This document shows, one piece after another, positions 19,078 through 58,284 of a stretch of 64,000 nucleotides of DNA. The DNA lies in the NCBI GenBank assembly GCA_903839875.1, contig CAIMDZ010000217.1, forward strand, positions 1-64,000, in the 5' to 3' direction. Position 1 is the first letter of the stretch; each line of letters opens with the position of its first letter. The position numbers and the translations under genes are program-made. This DNA comes from an uncultured Bacteroidota bacterium. GTDB taxonomy: Bacteria > Bacteroidota > Bacteroidia > Chitinophagales > Chitinophagaceae. A model generated the notes under the pieces. That model was given only the letters and a program-made list of their open reading frames with translations. It did not search any database and was not told the DNA's origin.

Positions 19078-19533
19078 TTATAGCCTCTTAGCCGTAAATG
19101 TTCCACCGCTAATTACGGTTCCATCCGTCATTTTAAAACTGAAAGTTCCGGAAATTGTTGCGGTTGAAGCTGAAGAAATAACAACAGAACCTGAACTGGC
19201 TGCCTTCATATCAGCCGGAGCTGAGGTCGGAGCATATGTACCTGCAACTGTTGGCGTTGTTGCAGTACTATCAACCGTATAGGTAGTGGGGCTGGTATAA
19301 TTATAAATAGTTATGCCAAAATACGGAGGTGTAGCAGTAGAGGTTGTGCCGCTACTACCGGTAATAGACAATATACTGCCTGTAATAACGGCATAAACAT
19401 TAGTTACGTTAAAAGCAGTGCCACCAATACTGGCATGCATGGAGTAACTGGGACTGCTGCTCTTTTTGCCGCAGCCAGAGAATGCAGCTAATCCAAGCAA
19501 AGCTATAGCTGCGAATGTGAAGATTCTTTTCAT
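19078..19533 (-). CDS. Small outer-membrane-type lipoprotein of unknown function
   Basis: 151 residues. The ATG at MKRIFTF was chosen because it begins a lipoprotein signal peptide with lipobox FSGC (Cys at about 21). The frame runs 29 codons further upstream without a signal. The mature protein is Ser/Thr/Ala/Gly-rich with beta-strand patterning (GSILSITGSS, ISGTFSFKM, GGTFTAKRL), resembling Bacteroidota lipoproteins of the DUF6252 kind. The IS element inserted about 100 bp upstream of its start may have separated it from its promoter. Confidence 0.7.
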   Translation of the reverse strand: MKRIFTFAAIALLGLAAFSGCGKKSSSPSYSMHASIGGTAFNVTNVYAVITGSILSITGSSGTTSTATPPYFGITIYNYTSPTTYTVDSTATTPTVAGTYAPTSAPADMKAASSGSVVISSASTATISGTFSFKMTDGTVISGGTFTAKRL

Positions 19534-19633: not shown

Positions 19634-19641
19634 TTAAATTA
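19634..19641. repeat. Target-site duplication, left copy (TTAAATTA)
   Basis: Identical to 22950-22957 on the other side of the element. The 8-bp length agrees with IS1595-family insertion. Confidence 0.9.
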
Positions 19642-19665
19642 GGCACTAACATACCACTTTACACC
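19642..19665 (+). repeat. Left inverted repeat of the IS1595-like element
   Basis: 24 bp, starting GGCACTAACATACC and ending TTTACACC. Exact reverse complement of 22926-22949. Confidence 0.95.
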
Positions 19666-19691
19666 GAACTATATAACCCCAAACAATTAAT

Positions 19692-19787
19692 ATGACTAAA
19701 TATCAAAAGCAACAACTCAAAAACCAAATAATATTAGTTTTGATTATCATAGCAATGTTCTGTATATTACACTATTCAAATATATAG
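19692..19787 (+). CDS. 31-residue single-span membrane peptide inside the IS
   Basis: The frame starts ATGACTAAATATCAAAAG and encodes a basic N-terminus (MTKYQKQQLKNQ) followed by about 14 hydrophobic residues (IILVLIIIAMFCIL) and HYSNI. It is preceded by an A/T-rich region. Its stop codon TAG abuts a clear stem-loop terminator on the same strand, the best argument that it is expressed. It could be a toxin-like or regulatory membrane peptide; no family is recognised, and a chance frame is possible. Confidence 0.45.
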   Translation: MTKYQKQQLKNQIILVLIIIAMFCILHYSNI

Positions 19788-19816
19788 GAAACGACCAACT
19801 GTAATCTGTCGTTTCC
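19787..19816 (+). terminator. Stem-loop terminator inside the IS, after the membrane peptide
   Basis: Perfect 9-bp stem (GGAAACGAC at 19787-19795 and GTCGTTTCC at 19808-19816) with a 12-base loop, followed by TTTT. It also insulates the left end of the element from the minus-strand passenger operon. Confidence 0.7.
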
Positions 19817-19855
19817 TTTTATATTTCTTGTAACAAGAAAAGTTTAATTTTCCTT

Positions 19856-20224
19856 TCAAATTATATCTTTCTCTTTATTCGGCACAGTCATTATAGCCGT
19901 TAGTATTTTATCAAAGTCTGTTAAATCCTTACCGTATTTTATTTCGCTACGCCTATTCAATAATAACCTTAATTCATCTTCTGTTACACACACTTCCATC
20001 AAACCTATTAATTTCAGTGTTTCCATTAGCACAGCATCATTATCTAATGCTGACTGGTCAATAACATTGATTACCAGTTCATATACTTCTTTGCTATCCA
20101 CAACAGATAAATTTGAAAATACAAACTGACTGAAAATATCTGTAATAGACATCTTCCAGTCCAGCCTTTTTACCTGCTGCTGTAAGTAATCATATACCTT
20201 CTTATTTCGTCTTATATTATTCAT
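19856..20224 (-). CDS. 122-residue passenger protein coupled to the transposase
   Basis: No family recognised. The protein is helical and charged, with an Arg/Lys-rich start (MNNIRRNKKVYDYLQQQVKR) and mixed hydrophobic and acidic helices; there is no signal or membrane segment. Its ATG lies one base after the transposase stop (TGA-T-ATG), so translation is almost certainly coupled. This tight link suggests an accessory role in transposition or its regulation, but that is inferred from position only. Confidence 0.7.
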   Translation of the reverse strand: MNNIRRNKKVYDYLQQQVKRLDWKMSITDIFSQFVFSNLSVVDSKEVYELVINVIDQSALDNDAVLMETLKLIGLMEVCVTEDELRLLLNRRSEIKYGKDLTDFDKILTAIMTVPNKEKDII

Positions 20225-20225
20225 A

Positions 20226-21236
20226 TCACAAATTGTTTTTCAAATCTACATAACGTAATCTCCTACCACATCCAGTTAATACTACATTGAACCTTTCCGC
20301 TGTTTCTAAATGCCTTGTATTAAATCTATATTCTACCTCCCTACAATACCTGTGTAAATGCTTTTCCGTTACACGACCCATATAAGTAGTGCCCCATGTT
20401 TTCTTTAAAATATTCCACACCCCTTCAATACGATTACTTGTATAACCATCGCAAGTTACATAATTACGCAGTCTATGATATACTACCTCATGTTGATAAT
20501 CTTTATTGAGATTTTTATACACACCAAATTCGTCTGTAACCACTATTGAGCCTGCTTCTACATTATTAAATACAAACGGCAATATCGTTTCACCTTTTAC
20601 ATTATCTACAACTTCCATTCTCACTATTGCCTGCTCATAAACTATCTTTTCACTTACAGGTTTCAAATCAGCATTATTTTTGTTATCCCTATAAATTACT
20701 TCCGAAATTTCATCTTTAAACATACCAAATACGGGTTGCTTATCTTCGCCACTTCTACCCTGTGAACCCTTTATTTTCTTGTCTTTATGCCTGTTACCAT
20801 TTTTACCACCTACATAAGTTTCGTCTAATTCAATAGTGCCGTCAAAATTCATTAAGAAATTTTCATGCTCCATTGCGTAGCGTATGCGAGATAATAAGAA
20901 CCAACTACTTTTTTGTGTAATATTAAGTTCAGTAGCCATTATATAACTACTGATACCTTTCTTATGCGTAGTGAATAAGTAGATAGCAAGAAACCATGTT
21001 TGTAGCGGTATCTTAGTATTTTCAAAGATAGTTCCTGTTAGTACATTGAAATATTTACCGCTATTCTTACACTTGTATTTATTGCCAGCACATTTATATA
21101 CTTTTGAATGAGCATCAAACGGCGATATAACATTACCATTCCAGCGTAATGTTTCCAGATGAGATATACAGATTTGTTCTGTCGGAAATGCTTTAAGTAA
21201 ATCCAGTATGCTTTTAAACGGTTTCAATTCTAACAT
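20226..21236 (-). CDS. IS1595-family (ISXO2-like) DDE transposase
   Basis: 336 residues. The N-terminus has a degenerate zinc-ribbon-like region (about 20-65) that starts at EQICISHL and includes KCAGNKYKCKNSGKYF, then the TGTIFENTKIPLQTWF segment typical of the family. The catalytic core is visible: ELDETYVGGKNGNRHKDKK (first Asp), VVTDEFGVY (second Asp), and the C-terminal motif SNRIEGVWNILKKTWGTTYM followed by KHLHRY and EYRFNTR. This is the ISXO2-type arrangement. The length is normal and there is no frameshift. It cuts and pastes the element via the 24-bp ends. Confidence 0.95.
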   Translation of the reverse strand: MLELKPFKSILDLLKAFPTEQICISHLETLRWNGNVISPFDAHSKVYKCAGNKYKCKNSGKYFNVLTGTIFENTKIPLQTWFLAIYLFTTHKKGISSYIMATELNITQKSSWFLLSRIRYAMEHENFLMNFDGTIELDETYVGGKNGNRHKDKKIKGSQGRSGEDKQPVFGMFKDEISEVIYRDNKNNADLKPVSEKIVYEQAIVRMEVVDNVKGETILPFVFNNVEAGSIVVTDEFGVYKNLNKDYQHEVVYHRLRNYVTCDGYTSNRIEGVWNILKKTWGTTYMGRVTEKHLHRYCREVEYRFNTRHLETAERFNVVLTGCGRRLRYVDLKNNL

Positions 21237-21299
21237 ACCACAAAGATAAGACGAATTTTACACCAAAACAAAGAATTCTAAAAAAACTTATCCACAATT

Positions 21300-21698
21300 T
21301 TAATTAAGTCCGAGAAAAACATCCCGTAAAGCGTTCCCTTTGTCTTGTTCAAAAGACATATACGGGGCAATAAAATTCGGAGCCATTGTCCCTAAATCCA
21401 GTAAAGATATTGCGTCATTTCCTGTTGAATATAAAGTTATAGTTTGATTCCTTTTATTATATTTTATATTCAAATAAAATATACCTTTTTCCGTTTCAAG
21501 ATTATAATTCAGCGAAATCTCATTCGGATTATTATATGACAATACATCAATATATGTAACATTAACCCTTAAACGACCCACAAATTTAGCATTTACAAAA
21601 TTTGTCACCAGTTGTATATCTTCGTGATTATACGGCATATTCAATTTATTTAGTAAATAAAGTAATGTTGTTTGTATCCAGTGTTTAATCTTTCTCAT
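21300..21698 (-). CDS. 132-residue passenger protein of unknown function
   Basis: Not recognised. A basic amphipathic N-terminus (MRKIKHWIQTTLLYLLNKL) could associate with a membrane. The rest looks like alternating beta-strands (GRLRVNVTYIDVLS, ISLNYNLETEKGIFYLNIKY, QTITLYS) and ends in an acidic helix. It starts 5 bases after the upstream Cys-rich gene, so the two are co-transcribed. It precedes the transposase by 63 bp. Confidence 0.65.
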   Translation of the reverse strand: MRKIKHWIQTTLLYLLNKLNMPYNHEDIQLVTNFVNAKFVGRLRVNVTYIDVLSYNNPNEISLNYNLETEKGIFYLNIKYNKRNQTITLYSTGNDAISLLDLGTMAPNFIAPYMSFEQDKGNALRDVFLGLN

Positions 21699-21703
21699 GC
21701 CTA

Positions 21704-22135
21704 TTATAGCATGTGAAATGTCTTTTGTTGTATATACGCCCAGTTAATTATTTCTTCTTCAACTTTCAATATTCCCGCCTTTTTGTAAAACTCTTTCCGT
21801 ATAGCATCGTCTTTTGCCATTATTATTCTGTCTAATCTATCTTTAGCCGATATAATAACTTTCGTATCAAATTCAGTAAACACAAGATAATTCACGATTA
21901 AGTAGCCATCCGTAATAATTGTTTGCTTTTCTATTACCCTTCCGAATACTTTACAAAAGTCTTCGCCATGCGAACTTAATAATTTCTCAGCAGATAAATG
22001 ACTATCTACTATTGAATTTCTAATACCACACTTTATACATTCAACCGTAGTGAAGCCGAAATTATCGCCCATAGAAATGAAAGTATCATTGCCGCATGAG
22101 CATATTATTTGTTCATCTTTTTGAATTAGCCACAT
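21704..22135 (-). CDS. 143-residue passenger protein with an N-terminal zinc ribbon
   Basis: The N-terminal third has CSCG followed about 24 residues later by CIKCG, a two-knuckle zinc-ribbon pattern typical of small nucleic-acid-binding proteins. The rest is mixed alpha/beta with no motif I know. I chose the ATG at MWLIQKDEQ. The frame extends to an ATG overlapping the previous stop at 22192, but those 19 extra codons read straight through a perfect 10-bp hairpin and look non-conserved in style. If the upstream start is used the protein has 162 residues and is coupled (ATGGTAA overlap). Confidence 0.6.
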   Translation of the reverse strand: MWLIQKDEQIICSCGNDTFISMGDNFGFTTVECIKCGIRNSIVDSHLSAEKLLSSHGEDFCKVFGRVIEKQTIITDGYLIVNYLVFTEFDTKVIISAKDRLDRIIMAKDDAIRKEFYKKAGILKVEEEIINWAYIQQKTFHML

Positions 22136-22149
22136 AATATTGAAAATAG

Positions 22150-22180
22150 AGAAGTAGCGACCTATATAGCCGCTACTTCT
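22150..22180 (-). terminator. 10-bp perfect hairpin between passenger genes
   Basis: Arms AGAAGTAGCG and CGCTACTTCT with an 11-base loop that itself contains CTATATAG. It lies just after the 45-residue microprotein stop and before the ATG at 22135. It could be an attenuator or partial terminator that sets lower expression of the downstream passenger genes and transposase. Confidence 0.5.
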
Positions 22181-22185
22181 TCGTT

Positions 22186-22323
22186 TTACCATTGAACGAT
22201 TTGCCTGATGTAACGTTCAATTTTTCGCCAGATACAGTTGCTCTTACCGTCTTTACAGAAGTAAGCACCTTGACTGTTTGAATTGTTAGTTCTGCCGCAT
22301 ACTTGACATTGATACTTTGCCAT
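22186..22323 (-). CDS. 45-residue zinc-ribbon microprotein inside the IS
   Basis: Reading from ATGGCAAAGTATCAATG, the peptide begins MAKYQCQVCGRTNN and continues to YFCKDGKSNC before a basic end IERYIRQIVQW. The CxxC ... CxxxxxxC spacing is a plausible single zinc-binding knuckle. Its stop overlaps the first possible ATG of the next frame (ATGGTAA). The first gene of the minus-strand passenger operon is divergent from the XRE regulator, whose ATG is 96 bases away. Small size argues for caution, but four well-placed cysteines and operon position support it. Confidence 0.6.
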   Translation of the reverse strand: MAKYQCQVCGRTNNSNSQGAYFCKDGKSNCIWRKIERYIRQIVQW

Positions 22324-22418
22324 AGATAAGTTTTTTGATTGTTAGAGATGCGGCTAAGATAATAAAAGTCAGCAATAATGTTTACTTATTTGAAACAATT
22401 TTTTCCACTTTTCTTTCA

Positions 22419-22649
22419 ATGTATAAGAGAGATAAAGTAGAAGCGGAATATTTGAAAAATTTAGGTAAGCGTATCAAAACAATACGCAAAGAGAAGCATA
22501 TAAAACAGGTTGAACTCGGTTACTCATGCGATATAGAAAAGCAAAGCATGAGTAGAATTGAGGCAGGTAACACTAATCCCTCAATTTTATTGTTGAGGAA
22601 AATTGCTGAAATTTTAGGTGTAACTGTAAGTGATTTTTTAGATTTTTAA
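22419..22649 (+). CDS. XRE-family helix-turn-helix regulator carried by the IS
   Basis: 76 residues. A single HTH_3/cro-C1 domain: LGKRIKTIRKEKHIKQVELG (helices 1-2), the recognition region KQSMSRIEAGNTNPSILLLRK, then IAEILGVTVSDFLDF. The ATG at MYKRDKVEAEYLKN was chosen because the 28 upstream codons are hydrophobic and unlike the family. It is divergent from the passenger operon, so it is well placed to repress the operon and its own gene, as regulators of mobile elements often do. Confidence 0.88.
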   Translation: MYKRDKVEAEYLKNLGKRIKTIRKEKHIKQVELGYSCDIEKQSMSRIEAGNTNPSILLLRKIAEILGVTVSDFLDF

Positions 22650-22652
22650 AAA

Positions 22653-22889
22653 CTACTTGTCGGTTTCAGGTTCGCTTTCAGCATTATTATTGCTTTCAGG
22701 CTCACTTTCTGGCTTAGTATCTTCTTCGGGCTTACTTTGAGCGTTTGTGAACGGCTTGTCGGTTTCAGGTTTATCTTCGGAATCATCGTCCGATTTTACT
22801 CCAATAATGTCATTAACGATGCCGCCTACAACGGAATCACCCCAACTGGTGTTATTTACGAAAGTTTCAAACTTTTTTAGGTATTTCAT
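22653..22889 (-). CDS. Acidic, low-complexity 78-residue passenger protein
   Basis: A short structured start (MKYLKKFETFVNNTSWGDSV) is followed by a very acidic Pro/Glu/Ser/Asp-rich tail with repeats such as PESEPESN and SEPETDK. It is tail-to-tail with the XRE gene, 3 bases between stops, and begins 37 bases from the right inverted repeat. A short A/T-rich inverted repeat (CAAAAATA / TATTTTTG) just upstream may hold its promoter. Acidic DNA-mimic or linker roles are conceivable but unsupported. Confidence 0.55.
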   Translation of the reverse strand: MKYLKKFETFVNNTSWGDSVVGGIVNDIIGVKSDDDSEDKPETDKPFTNAQSKPEEDTKPESEPESNNNAESEPETDK

Positions 22890-22925
22890 ATATACTATAT
22901 ATCAAAAATAAGAATTGCTATTTTT

Positions 22926-22949
22926 GGTGTAAAGTGGTATGTTAGTGCC
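22926..22949 (-). repeat. Right inverted repeat of the IS1595-like element
   Basis: Perfect reverse complement of the left end, followed by the second TTAAATTA target copy at 22950-22957. Confidence 0.95.
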
Positions 22950-23102
22950 TTAAATTATTAGATTTTAGTTAATCAGCATTGCCCTTTTTCATTGTTCTCA
23001 TTCTAAGATTCCCATATAAAAAGCGCAGTAATTTTTTAATGTATTATTCTTGCGCTATAATAGTTTTTTGTTGTTTTTACATGAGAAGCGACATACATGG
23101 AG

Positions 23103-23148: not shown

Positions 23149-23892
23149 ATGGAAGATAAAAAGCAAAATGAAGCAACCAATCTTTTAAATGAATTTCCTG
23201 AACAAAATAAAACAGCTCAACTCTATCCGCATATTATTTTAAAGGTTCTTGAAACGAGTTATATTACACATGATGTGAAGCGTTTTGTTCTGGAAAAACC
23301 ACCGGATTATACTTTCATACCCGGACAATCTGTAAACGTTTCAATAAATTTACCTGAGTGGAAAAATGAGTTACGTCCATTTACTTTTACCAATTTACCT
23401 GATGATAACTACCTGGAGTTTATGATCAAAATATACCGTGATCATAATGGAGTTACTAAAAAGATTGAAAGCATTAACCAGGGAGATGAATTGATACTAC
23501 ATGATATCTTCGGCGCTATTCAGTTTAAAGAAAACGGGGTTTTTATTTCAGCAGGTTCAGGCATTACTCCATTTCTATCCATCTTTCGCTACTTGTATAA
23601 ACATAAGCGTGCACATGGAAACATGCTGATATATTCAAACAAAACATCGGAAGATGTAATTATGGAAGAAAGTTTACACACCATGCTGAAGGATAATTTT
23701 ATTATGGTGTATACACGCGAAAATGTTGTTGGATTTATTGAAAAAAGAATTGACCGTAACTTTTTAATTGACCACATCAAAAATTTCAAACAGCACTTTT
23801 ACGTCTGCGGACCAGAAACTTTTGTAACAGATCTTAGAAACATTCTACTGAGTCTTGGCGCTACTGTAGACAATATAATTTTTGAATATTAA
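23149..23892 (+). CDS. Ferredoxin-NADP reductase-like FAD oxidoreductase
   Basis: 247 residues with the FNR fold. The FAD-contact motif RPFTFTNLP (consensus RxYSxxS/T) is at about 76-84. The NAD(P)-binding start SAGSGITPFLSI is at about 135-146, and the terminal nucleotide motif YVCGPETFV near 218. There is no C-terminal 2Fe-2S domain and no transmembrane segment, so it is a soluble electron-transfer flavoprotein. A short polar N-terminus (about 1-25) precedes the FAD domain. The partner protein is unknown; neighbours give no clue. Confidence 0.85.
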   Translation: MEDKKQNEATNLLNEFPEQNKTAQLYPHIILKVLETSYITHDVKRFVLEKPPDYTFIPGQSVNVSINLPEWKNELRPFTFTNLPDDNYLEFMIKIYRDHNGVTKKIESINQGDELILHDIFGAIQFKENGVFISAGSGITPFLSIFRYLYKHKRAHGNMLIYSNKTSEDVIMEESLHTMLKDNFIMVYTRENVVGFIEKRIDRNFLIDHIKNFKQHFYVCGPETFVTDLRNILLSLGATVDNIIFEY

Positions 23893-54132: not shown

Positions 54133-57100
54133 ATGGGATCAGGAAATTTTTACTTGAAACAAGTAAATACTAAAAAAAATGTGAAAGGAAATCGTTTTTT
54201 ACGGTCATTCCTTATTGCAGGTTTATTGTTAATGGGCATGCCGCTTATGAGTAAGGCTAATACTGCACCGGTATTCCAGTATGGTACTGCGTATACTATT
54301 ACAGTTTGCCAGAACTCGAATATTATCGTTGATCCCTTTTTAACAATAATAGATCCTGATGCCGGACAGGGTGAAACATGGAGCTCAACAATCATACCTA
54401 CCTATGGTACACTGAGCCAATCGGCATCGTATAATATCGCTACCGGTGGATATACCTCCACATCCGGATGGACTTATACGCCAAATCCCGGAACAACAGG
54501 TATTGACAATTTTACAATTAAGATAGATGACGGTAACGGCGGTACTTCTACCATCGCAATTACTGTAGTGGTATCTGCTCTGCCTTCTGTTAATATTGTT
54601 TCTATACCTCCGGTATGTGCAGGCGCAACAAGCACACAATTATTTTACGACAGCCCTGCTAATATAGGGCCTGACAACCATAATTCGACAATTGCAGGAA
54701 ACAGCACGTGGATAGTTCCTCCGGGAGTGAATAGTGTTGATTTCGATCTCCAGGGTGGGACAGGCGGTATGGATGACCACAGCGGTTTGCCTAATCCGGG
54801 CCTCGGCGGACGTGTGCAGGGGACTCTTTCTGTAGTACCCGGCCAGGTATTAAATATTAATGTTGGAGGCCAGGGTGCTAACGGTTCTGTTTCAGGTGCG
54901 GCCGGTGGATTCAATGGTGGCGGCAACGCTAATTTCTATTTCTTTGGATGCGGTGGCGCCGGTGGCGGAGCATCTGATATTCGCATAGGTGGTAATGGCC
55001 TTGCTAACCGCGTAGTAGTTGCCGGCGGCGGCGGCGGTAACGGCTGGGATTCTCCGGGTGCATCTTGCGGCGGCGATGGCGGTAACCTTATTGGCGGTGC
55101 AAGCTGTAACAATGTTGGTGGCGGCCATGCAAGCGGAGGCACCCAACTTACAGGCGGGTCACATGCAACCTACGTTGGCTGGACACCGGGTGGAAATGGT
55201 TCAATAGGTACCGGTGGAGATGGCAGCGTACAAGGCATTTCAGGCGGCGGCGGCGGCGGCTACTTTGGCGGCGGCGGCGGCGTATGGTGCGGTGGTGGCG
55301 GTGGCTCTTCATTCGCTGATGGCAGTTATGCTTCAAGTGTTGTGATGACACAGGGCTATAATATTGCTGGCGGTGCGGTACTTCTTCATTATACAATTCC
55401 AGGTACCTACGACATCACCTGGGACCCGGCAGCAATTGCAGTTGGCTTTGTTAATGTGAGCGGGGCGTCATTCCCTGCTTCACCGATTACTATCGCTATT
55501 CCTCCTGGAGCGCCGGCGGGAACTTATAACGCAAACTTTACTCTTACAAATAATCTTCCCTGTACCAGCAATATTTATCCAATCAATGTAACCATTAACC
55601 CAATACCTGATGTTGCACCTATCACTGGCCAGGCGGTTTGTAATACTGACAATACAGTGCCTGTTTTCTTTAGTGGCACAGTAAGTGGTACCACATTCGA
55701 CTGGACAAATGGAACGACAAGTATTGGTTTAGGAGCCAGCGGTACCGGCACTTCTATTGGTTCTTTCACTGCGGCTAATATTAGTGCTATTCCGGTGTTT
55801 GCAACAATAACTGTTAAACCTTCGGCGGCAGGATGTGATGGCGCTACTACCACCTTTACTTATTCGGTTAACCCTACACCAATGCTGAGCAGTTCTCTTT
55901 CTGCCGGTTCGATTTGCGACAGCAACATGTTCCATTATTATCCTGCAAGTGGCACACCAGGTTCTTCATTTATCTGGTTCCGTACTTATAATCCAGGTAT
56001 CACTGTTGGAGGTAGTTCAGCAGGCGGAAGTGGTGCTGGTGATCCAGCTGAGCAGTTACATAATATTACATCTGATCCGGTTGTTGTTCAATACCAATAT
56101 ACACTTGCGGCTAACGGTTGCACCTACAGCCAGTTTGTTTATGTAACTGTTAATCCTACTCCAAAGTTAGGTAGCTCACTTAATCCACCTGCAGTATGCA
56201 GCGGTACACCATTTGTTTATGCACCCTGGAGCGCGACAGCGGGTACAACCTTTGCATGGAGCAGGAGTGCAGTGCCTGGTATCAGTAACTCGGCCTGGTT
56301 AGGAACAAATGGTATTAATGAAACATTGATCAATACAACTGCCGCTCCGGTAGTAGTATCCTATGTTTATACCCTTGTTGCAAATGGCTGTCCATATACT
56401 CAGACTGTTATGGTTACGGTTAACCCGTCACCGGTACTGAACACCAACTTAACCCCGCCTGCAATTTGTAGCGGCACATTGTTCCCTTATGGTCCGGGTT
56501 CTGCAACTATTGGTACTACGTTCTCATGGAACCGTCCATTTACCCCCGGTATCAGCACTTCTCCAAATTTCGGTGCGGATTCTATTAATGAAACATTGAC
56601 CAACATTACCCCTGATCCGGTTGTTGTTAATTATACCTATACTTTAATGGCAAACGGATGTTCTAATACTCAGAATTTACCGGTTACTGTTAATCCAAGT
56701 CCAAAGTTGAATAACAGTACATTGTCTCCAAAAGTTTGTGACAGCACATTATTCAATTATTATCCGACCAGCCTGACAGCAGGTACTTCTTTCACATGGA
56801 CACGTGCAGTTGTTGCAAATATCACTGCCGGTCCGGGTTCAGGTTTTGGCAACCCAATGGAAACATTGGTAAATACTTCAGCAAGTCCACAAGTAGTTAC
56901 TTATATATTTACATTAAGTGCAAATGGCTGTTCCAATACTCAAAACGTATTACTGACCGTAAATCCAAAACCAACACTGAGCAGTACGCTCACTCCGGCT
57001 GCAATTTGCGACAGTTCAAAATTCGATTACAATCCGACAAGCAATACTGCAGGTACTACATTTGCATGGGAGCAACCATATGTTCCGGGTATTTATGCTA

Positions 57101-58284
57101 TGCATCATTTCGGTACAAATAATCCAAATGATACCCTGATCAATTCTACTTATGTAGTTGTGGATGTTCCTTTCACTTATACATTAACAGCAAATGGCTG
57201 TTCAAATGTTGAAGTGCTATCTGTAGCTGTAAATCCTACACCAAAACTGTTACCTCCGTTTACAGGTACAGTATGCAGCGGATCACCGTTTACTTATGTT
57301 CCAAACAGCTATACACCGGGTACAATTTATCAGTGGAATCGTCCACAGGTATCACATATTACACCTGTTACAGCTTTCTCAACCGGTAACATAAATGAAA
57401 CACTAACTAATGATAGTTATGCACCGGTATTTGTTGAGTACTTCTACAGGTTAAGTGTAAACGGCTGTATTAATCTTTACCCGCAATCAGTTAAGGTAAA
57501 GGTTAATCCAACACCAACCGTGCCTGCAATAACCACATATCCTCCAAATAATCTTTGTTCAGGAACTATGTACCAGAATTTCGGTTCTAATACACCACTT
57601 TCTCCTTTGCAATATCATTGGACTGCAACGAACGCAACCGTTTATGGTGAAGGAACAAACAACCAGTATGCACTCGTTAATTTCAATATCCCAAACACTA
57701 CTGCTGTTGTTACGCTGACTTCTAATGTAAGTGGTTTTAGTTGTTCAATCAACAATTCATACATTGTAAAAGTTGGATCCGGCGTATCAGAAAACCCACA
57801 GGTTATTTATTATAATGGCCAGTTCATCTGCCTGAAAAATGATAATGGCAGCTACCAATGGGGTTATGATGATTCAAAAACGCTTGATTCAACTATTATC
57901 CCAGTCGAGATTGATCAGAATTATAATAATTCCAACCCTGATTTCAACAACAGGAACTATTGGGTAATTACGAAGAAGGATGAATGTATGCAGAAATCTT
58001 ACTACAACAGGCCATCAGGAATTGGTAATGTAAATGATGATCAGCCGGAAGTGAAAGTTTATCCAAACCCGACTAACCAAATACTTAATGTGGAAATTAC
58101 TTCAGTAATGGGCGGCAAAATGCAGGCGGAAATATTAAATATGCTAGGCCAGAAGATGGATATGCAACCTGTAATAAATAACAAGGCCACTTTCGATGTA
58201 GCTGGTTTGCCATCAGGAGTTTACCTGGTAGATTGCTATAACAATGGCGTGAGAATAGGTACTTCAAGGTTCATTAAAAACTAA
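54133..58284 (+). CDS. Large T9SS protein with Gly-rich and PKD-like repeat regions
   Basis: 1383 residues. A long n-region precedes the signal peptide hydrophobic core (RFLRSFLIAGLLLMGMPLMS, about 22-41). A cadherin/Ig-like region (about 45-150) includes NTAPVF and DGNGGTST. Then a Gly-rich domain (about 189-426) has many GGGGG stretches like the receptor-type glycine-rich domain. Six repeats of about 90 residues follow (about 580-1150), each with TPKLGSSL-like starts, a CSGTPF or CDSTLF motif and F-x-W-x-R centre. The end (about 1305-1383) is a type A sorting domain: VKVYPNPTNQILNVEITS and SGVYLVDCYNNG. It is followed after 39 bases by an OmpA-type gene in the same direction. Confidence 0.88.
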   Translation: MGSGNFYLKQVNTKKNVKGNRFLRSFLIAGLLLMGMPLMSKANTAPVFQYGTAYTITVCQNSNIIVDPFLTIIDPDAGQGETWSSTIIPTYGTLSQSASYNIATGGYTSTSGWTYTPNPGTTGIDNFTIKIDDGNGGTSTIAITVVVSALPSVNIVSIPPVCAGATSTQLFYDSPANIGPDNHNSTIAGNSTWIVPPGVNSVDFDLQGGTGGMDDHSGLPNPGLGGRVQGTLSVVPGQVLNINVGGQGANGSVSGAAGGFNGGGNANFYFFGCGGAGGGASDIRIGGNGLANRVVVAGGGGGNGWDSPGASCGGDGGNLIGGASCNNVGGGHASGGTQLTGGSHATYVGWTPGGNGSIGTGGDGSVQGISGGGGGGYFGGGGGVWCGGGGGSSFADGSYASSVVMTQGYNIAGGAVLLHYTIPGTYDITWDPAAIAVGFVNVSGASFPASPITIAIPPGAPAGTYNANFTLTNNLPCTSNIYPINVTINPIPDVAPITGQAVCNTDNTVPVFFSGTVSGTTFDWTNGTTSIGLGASGTGTSIGSFTAANISAIPVFATITVKPSAAGCDGATTTFTYSVNPTPMLSSSLSAGSICDSNMFHYYPASGTPGSSFIWFRTYNPGITVGGSSAGGSGAGDPAEQLHNITSDPVVVQYQYTLAANGCTYSQFVYVTVNPTPKLGSSLNPPAVCSGTPFVYAPWSATAGTTFAWSRSAVPGISNSAWLGTNGINETLINTTAAPVVVSYVYTLVANGCPYTQTVMVTVNPSPVLNTNLTPPAICSGTLFPYGPGSATIGTTFSWNRPFTPGISTSPNFGADSINETLTNITPDPVVVNYTYTLMANGCSNTQNLPVTVNPSPKLNNSTLSPKVCDSTLFNYYPTSLTAGTSFTWTRAVVANITAGPGSGFGNPMETLVNTSASPQVVTYIFTLSANGCSNTQNVLLTVNPKPTLSSTLTPAAICDSSKFDYNPTSNTAGTTFAWEQPYVPGIYAMHHFGTNNPNDTLINSTYVVVDVPFTYTLTANGCSNVEVLSVAVNPTPKLLPPFTGTVCSGSPFTYVPNSYTPGTIYQWNRPQVSHITPVTAFSTGNINETLTNDSYAPVFVEYFYRLSVNGCINLYPQSVKVKVNPTPTVPAITTYPPNNLCSGTMYQNFGSNTPLSPLQYHWTATNATVYGEGTNNQYALVNFNIPNTTAVVTLTSNVSGFSCSINNSYIVKVGSGVSENPQVIYYNGQFICLKNDNGSYQWGYDDSKTLDSTIIPVEIDQNYNNSNPDFNNRNYWVITKKDECMQKSYYNRPSGIGNVNDDQPEVKVYPNPTNQILNVEITSVMGGKMQAEILNMLGQKMDMQPVINNKATFDVAGLPSGVYLVDCYNNGVRIGTSRFIKN

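Follow-up and report, generated by a model that had tools for sequence, protein, structure and literature searches.

A transposase-coupled tail gene and a separate cargo cassette in an IS1595-family element from an uncultured Chitinophagaceae bacterium

We analyzed a 64,000-nucleotide stretch of DNA (contig CAIMDZ010000217.1, positions 1 to 64,000; here called the window) from an uncultured member of the Chitinophagaceae and closely examined an element of the IS1595 family at positions 19642-22949. The element is 3308 bp long. Its terminal inverted repeats are identical at 24/24 positions in inverted orientation, and the target duplication flanking them is identical at 8/8 positions, which confirms the length, exact ends and duplication given in the initial annotation, a reading of the sequence alone. 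The locus is an IS1595 insertion with an 8-bp duplication, which holds its transposase together with a coupled tail gene and a separate cassette. The features of the ends and of the transposase region are as follows:

19634-19641, no strand: left target duplication, TTAAATTA
19642-19665, plus strand: left terminal inverted repeat, 24 bp, GGCACTAACATACCACTTTACACC
19856-20224, minus strand: orf122, the tail gene coupled to the transposase, encoding a helical body without a named family and a C-terminal tail
19877-19924, minus strand: codons of the 16-residue tail LTDFDKILTAIMTVPN, with a score of 19.6 against a flank maximum of 10.7
20226-21236, minus strand: IS1595-family transposase, assigned by NCBIfam and Pfam models
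21241-21272, minus strand: promoter-like stretch TTTG-N20-TATCTTTG upstream of the transposase, read from the sequence
22926-22949, minus strand: right terminal inverted repeat, 24 bp, the exact reverse complement of the left one
22950-22957, no strand: right target duplication, TTAAATTA

Members of the IS1595 family have ends beginning with GG and generate an 8-bp target duplication, and the element shows paired ends starting with GG together with such a duplication. The family is reportedly the subject of a 2009 paper by Siguier et al. Two curated models bear out the transposase assignment made earlier, namely, NCBIfam IS1595 (NF033547; 164.9 bits, cut-off 75) and Pfam DDE_Tnp_IS1595 (PF12762; 110.8 bits, cut-off 27). 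The putative N-terminal zinc ribbon of the transposase scored 15 bits with PF12760, under the cut-off of 25.4. The residues D, D, and E that we presume to be catalytic are invariant across six aligned transposases. Of the zinc-ribbon cysteines, the first pair, kept in several relatives, is missing from the window transposase and also from that of locus L034 (loci other than the window are given by L numbers).

The gene orf122 starts 1 nt past the transposase stop, so that the one-base coupling claimed for the last gene of the element holds. Its tail score, computed with close relatives left out of the matrix, exceeds those of all flanking open reading frames (ORFs), which places it among the tail genes described below. 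The protein has no Pfam match to P63C, RhuM or KilA-N. An AlphaFold model built from 8 sequences (mean predicted local distance difference test score [pLDDT], 77.6) contains a helical body up to residue 96, a low-confidence stretch at residues 97-101 and a separate helix of modest confidence at residues 101-112. Relatives of low identity occur in Flavobacterium, Chryseobacterium, Taibaiella and others, and when 295 genomes of the class were searched with the single sequence, only the window copy was found. In an element of Flavipsychrobacter stenotrophus (L098), the tail gene is 75% identical to orf122, and additional genes separate it from the transposase gene. Replacement divergence (pN) between the window and L098 was 0.137 for orf122 and 0.131 for the transposase versus 0.223 for an XRE regulator and 0.394 for a small zinc ribbon, with synonymous change near saturation. 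The conservation of orf122 matches that of the transposase and exceeds that of the XRE and zinc-ribbon genes. The gene thus appears to be part of the transposition core rather than ordinary cargo.

Cargo-carrying IS1595 members, such as tISCpe8 and MTnSag1, have been reported (PMC5704250). A related transposase was present in 18/40 genomes (own, genus and order). Within the limits of our script, paired ends and a duplication were recognized in 16/34 sequences (33 stretches from these genomes plus the window), the loosest accepted cases being L044, with two mismatches in the duplication, and L051, with four mismatches in the ends. The additional genes differ among these 16 elements, some being common to L035 and L036; judged by reading, those of the relatives include a PIN-like pair and a protein resembling type I methylases. 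When transposases were searched by alignment, named genomes yielded 80 loci (the best 80 of 413) and viral contigs 59; paired ends and a duplication are present at 55 and 25 of these, respectively. The comparison set came to 94 elements once three duplicates (L161, L166 and L170, the same places as L035, L039 and L036) were removed and L086, which is without a transposase, was added. In the other 93, the median length of non-transposase DNA is 2080 bp. Cargo-loaded IS1595 elements are therefore an ordinary, known kind.

In many of the related elements, one gene encodes a protein with a short amphipathic C-terminal tail of the approximate form LSDFDxxLKxxLxYNP. Protein clustering joined 50 genes from 50 elements with unlike bodies and similar last ~20 residues; the single-linkage clusters also contain antisense ORFs of the transposase, which were ignored. 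By-eye assignment gave a total of 79 tail genes and fixed about a dozen tail registrations, which makes 79/94 an upper figure beside the mechanical 46/94 given below. The tail gene overlaps or abuts the transposase stop in 57/79 cases (assigned by eye). Among 52 scanned tail proteins, the bodies were P63C (13), RhuM (6) and KilA-N (6); the remainder have an unnamed body, as in orf122, or consist of a lysine-rich basic leader plus the tail. Their PHROG matches include anti-repressors, and for 2/52 the matching PHROG is that of BstA, an abortive-infection protein. Across 76 tails (L171, L037 and L051 have no entry), position 0 is Phe in 67, position 4 is Leu, Ile or Met in 73 and position 8 is Leu in 38. 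Mean hydropathy is high at positions 0, 4, 7 and 8, i.e., on one helix face.

For scoring, relatives with a transposase at least 60% identical were removed from the matrix. The best non-transposase ORF lay above the 1% flank threshold in 46/94 elements and above all 1292 flank ORFs in 31; with hand-picked frames, 51/94 elements exceeded the threshold. By source, 35/52 named-genome and 7/25 viral-contig elements passed. In a later sample, the gene adjoining the transposase scored above the 1% threshold at 6/28 loci and above the flank maximum at 4 (binomial probability of 6/28, 3e-7 at a 1% rate and 1.6e-4 at 3%); since the score taken was the highest over several start positions, the per-locus chance rate is above 1%. 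The matrix for this sample, and for proteins outside IS1595, was trained on all 76 tails. The sample excludes the window, listed there as L275, and L266, which is the same as a training element, and includes L273, L276 and L281, which are L094, L095 and L097 of an earlier search; L273 and L281 are among the six positives, and their tails lie outside the matrix. In the open-access literature searched, including the accessible parts of PMC5704250, PMC12561309, PMC10782964 and PMC7371123, we found no account of IS1595 elements sharing a conserved tail gene; earlier notice is possible.

At L086:7193-7893 lies a 701-bp element with paired ends, an 8-bp duplication and a small tail gene but without a transposase; its tail gene differs from that of L042 by 12 synonymous and 5 replacement differences over 52 codons. 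Nine streptococcal elements of 3.1-5.8 kb (L147, L149, L150, L151, L155, L156, L157, L165 and L169) have in common two genes after the tail gene, encoding proteins of ~95 aa and ~183 aa, the latter nucleotidyltransferase-like (name from reading).

Tail and body relate differently to the transposase. In Mantel tests on non-redundant sets (transposases >85% identical removed), tail distance followed transposase distance (n = 62; r = 0.65, p = 0.0005), whereas body class, with all bodiless tails pooled into one class, did not (r = -0.02, p = 0.64). For all multi-domain bodies (n = 32), the tail gave r = 0.61 versus r = 0.40 for the body, a weaker contrast, and for P63C, RhuM and KilA-N alone (n = 22) it gave r = 0.71 (p = 0.0002) versus r = 0.22 (p = 0.09) for the body. 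These three classes are spread over the transposase tree as at random, with 7 changes required against a shuffled mean of 6.5, and well-supported sister transposases have unlike bodies in L143/L126 (RhuM and KilA-N), L140/L131 (P63C and KilA-N) and L145/L119 (P63C and other). Such a pattern could also arise if the tail were co-inherited with the transposase by descent and linkage, while bodies were replaced by recombination, with no contact between tail and transposase. Most tail genes do adjoin the transposase, and covariation alone cannot separate interaction from co-inheritance. However, plain linkage does not easily explain the data, since in coupled elements it is the swapped body that separates tail from transposase; moreover, the same hydrophobic tail face is kept on unrelated bodies. 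We regard co-inheritance as an improbable account.

The bodies P63C, KilA-N and RhuM are phage-associated, as are the anti-repressor and BstA matches, which suggests another possibility: the tail gene could be a phage-related defence or addiction gene that benefits the host or the element, and the tail would then bind a host factor instead of the transposase. Some RhuM proteins encoded apart from IS1595 carry a similar tail (L240, L241, L251 and L252, with L241 and L252 in type I restriction loci); no IS1595 transposase was found within the fetched stretches around them. The tail may thus derive from RhuM or serve a wider purpose, and the idea that it is exclusive to IS1595 was rejected because of these proteins. 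In contrast, the tail was absent from 12/12 examined P63C proteins outside IS1595. P63C relatives in plasmids (16/16 records listed) and phages (30 of 49 records listed) align no further than residue 299 of 329, short of the tail. Furthermore, some tail proteins are nearly bodiless, and covariation between tail and transposase holds for different bodies. A defence or addiction role is therefore rather unlikely in our view.

For the small lysine-rich tail proteins, a profile (A1) was built from 10 members without use of the transposase, with L035 and L036 left out. None of these proteins has an NCBIfam match, and one has a weak, unrelated Pfam match. The profile gave 19 matches in 10/40 relatives' genomes, and an IS1595 transposase was present in 9/10 of these compared with 18/40 overall (hypergeometric probability, 0.0013, biased in that ten matches are the seeds). 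Seven of the nine non-seed matches are followed by an IS1595-type end 64-199 nt downstream, and two of the seven (L086 and L041) also have a matching second end and a duplication; no IS1595-type end was found downstream of the matches in L092 and L093. In 395 genomes of the phylum, five were matched, including the window's own. Three of the four other-genome matches lie within 1 kb of an IS1595 transposase, and the fourth (L096, a stop-broken frame) does not.

The remaining genes all lie inside the element ends:

21300-21698, minus strand: orf132, cassette gene with a conserved hydrophobic N terminus
21704-22192, minus strand: orf162, possible zinc-ribbon protein without a relative in the fetched loci
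22186-22323, minus strand: orf45, small zinc-ribbon cassette gene
22419-22649, plus strand: XRE (HTH_3) regulator of the cassette
22653-22889, minus strand: orf78, acidic repetitive protein, convergent on the XRE gene

The XRE gene diverges from the minus-strand genes as predicted. Of the two putative zinc-ribbon genes, orf45 shows the clearer cysteine pattern, while the label of orf162 comes from four cysteines found by reading, with no family match. The single passenger operon proposed initially did not hold, given that orf122 appears to belong to the transposition core and that XRE, zinc ribbon and orf132 form a separate, apparently exchangeable cassette. These three co-occur in the window, L098 and L056. 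L098 shares with the window the XRE gene, the small zinc ribbon, the orf132 N terminus, the transposase and orf122, so part of the cargo travels with similar ends elsewhere. The XRE proteins of the window and L056 are 71% identical (synonymous divergence [dS], 0.57) despite transposases that are ~32% identical, which we read as exchange of the cassette between IS1595 lineages. The L056 cassette is convergent with its transposase, and no ends were recognized around L056. An orf132 profile matched 2/60 genomes (window and L056), each beside an IS1595 transposase; cargo apart from a transposase was thus not seen in this search, XRE and zinc ribbon not having been searched genome-wide on their own.

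The cargo genes XRE, zinc ribbon, orf132, orf162 and orf78 are probably dispensable for transposition. The small zinc ribbon has conserved cysteines and a Trp-ended C terminus, and orf132 has a conserved hydrophobic N terminus followed by a divergent part; at a guess, these features would fit a membrane-linked effector under a repressor. Family libraries yielded no cassette function beyond the HTH regulator, and in PADLOC the XRE matches were of HTH type, with a single weak match of orf162 to Cas11e (E = 0.0017).

Upstream of the transposase, TTTG-N20-TATCTTTG is promoter-like by the Bacteroidota consensus. The stretch includes GGTGTAAA, the inner part of the terminal repeat, which is also kept upstream of the L098 transposase, and the transposase start codon lies a few bases past it. 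This arrangement could possibly allow self-repression and a leaderless message. A broken repeat-like stretch is present at the window transposase promoter. An old end at this promoter was considered as a general cargo-capture route and rejected: an ungapped scan beat all control windows in 1/46 elements (L059), the window failed to beat its controls, and L098 retains just the GGTGTAAA part.

The GC content of the element is 0.325, compared with 0.425 for the window. The element is flanked by a lipoprotein-like short gene (19081-19533, without a Pfam match) and an FAD/NAD oxidoreductase gene (23149-23889), and therefore the insertion disrupts no obvious gene. With up to 3 mismatches, no further copy of the element end was found in the 226-contig, 5.29-Mb draft genome. 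The joined flanks gave no one-piece match marking an empty insertion site in relatives (40 genomes, own included), the sole match in another genome covering 48 nt of the query. No relaxase family, as would mark an integrative mobilizable element of the MTnSag1 type, occurs among the Pfam matches; an origin of transfer (oriT) was not searched for. Elsewhere in the window, positions 54133-58281 encode a protein of 1383 aa for which Pfam indicates PKD-like repeats, a secretion sorting tail and a glycine-rich domain.

Taken together, the comparisons document an insertion with duplication, gene coupling, a recurrent tail, swapping of bodies and purifying selection. The best explanation, to which we give about an even chance, is that the tail protein is a transposition accessory whose helix docks on the transposase and whose body is exchangeable, with the cassette as separate cargo. 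The C-terminal amphipathic helix of orf122 would dock on the transposase, and the body swapped between elements would control the transposase, contact DNA or influence target choice. The cassette would be cargo under its own divergent, repressor-type regulator, with the XRE protein repressing it. A wider model, which we hold with somewhat less confidence, is that a widespread branch of IS1595 in Bacteroidota and Bacillota is a two-protein system of transposase and coupled adaptor. The adaptor would have a helix matched to the transposase and a body that is traded among domains of DNA-binding and phage type, re-wiring the transposase to new control or targets; orf122 would be an adaptor with an unnamed body.

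Several results weigh against an accessory role. The tail threshold was not reached in 48/94 elements, nor beside the transposase at 22/28 later loci, and the hand list gives no tail gene for 15/94 elements, of which 12 belong to the 25 from viral contigs; a tail in every IS1595 element was accordingly rejected. Only 4/16 of the relatives' elements passed (window, L034, L044 and L046), partly because of wrong script-picked frames and partly because their lysine-rich small proteins resemble other tails only loosely. Joining these small proteins to the other tails rests largely on by-eye alignment, and the small version is often located at the element's far end. Across all multi-domain bodies, body class also correlated with the transposase (r = 0.40), and 4/11 RhuM proteins outside IS1595 have a tail-like end above the flank maximum. 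The elements without a tail gene, the diverse cargo and the precedent of loaded IS1595 elements would suit the view that orf122, like every other non-transposase gene, is a plain passenger that plays no part in transposition. This is very improbable, as the conservation of orf122 is on a par with that of the transposase, which is not so for XRE and zinc ribbon, and as the tail recurs and covaries with the transposase.

If the proposed docking is true, a large family of insertion sequences that are mostly handled as one-gene elements would have a second, modular component, with a logic like that of the target selectors of larger transposons. The ~16-residue tail would offer a handle for annotating many small unnamed proteins, and the elements would supply naturally occurring body swaps among closely related transposases.

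Larger transposons of the Tn7 type use target-selector and accessory proteins, combining one transposase with exchangeable partners. The likeness to these selectors is one of idea, for a role that we infer in the window element. P63C, RhuM and KilA-N domains of phages and plasmids form the bodies of many related tail proteins, whereas orf122 has none of them; the examined P63C proteins outside IS1595 are without the tail, unlike the tail proteins of IS1595 elements. Loaded elements of the tISCpe8/MTnSag1 type (PMC5704250) have the same transposase family and one pair of ends around extra genes. By comparison with these, the window element is without a drug-resistance gene, and its last gene belongs to the tail-gene set. 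What stands out here, as judged from sequence comparison, is a transposase-matched tail on exchangeable partner proteins in an otherwise ordinary loaded IS1595 element.

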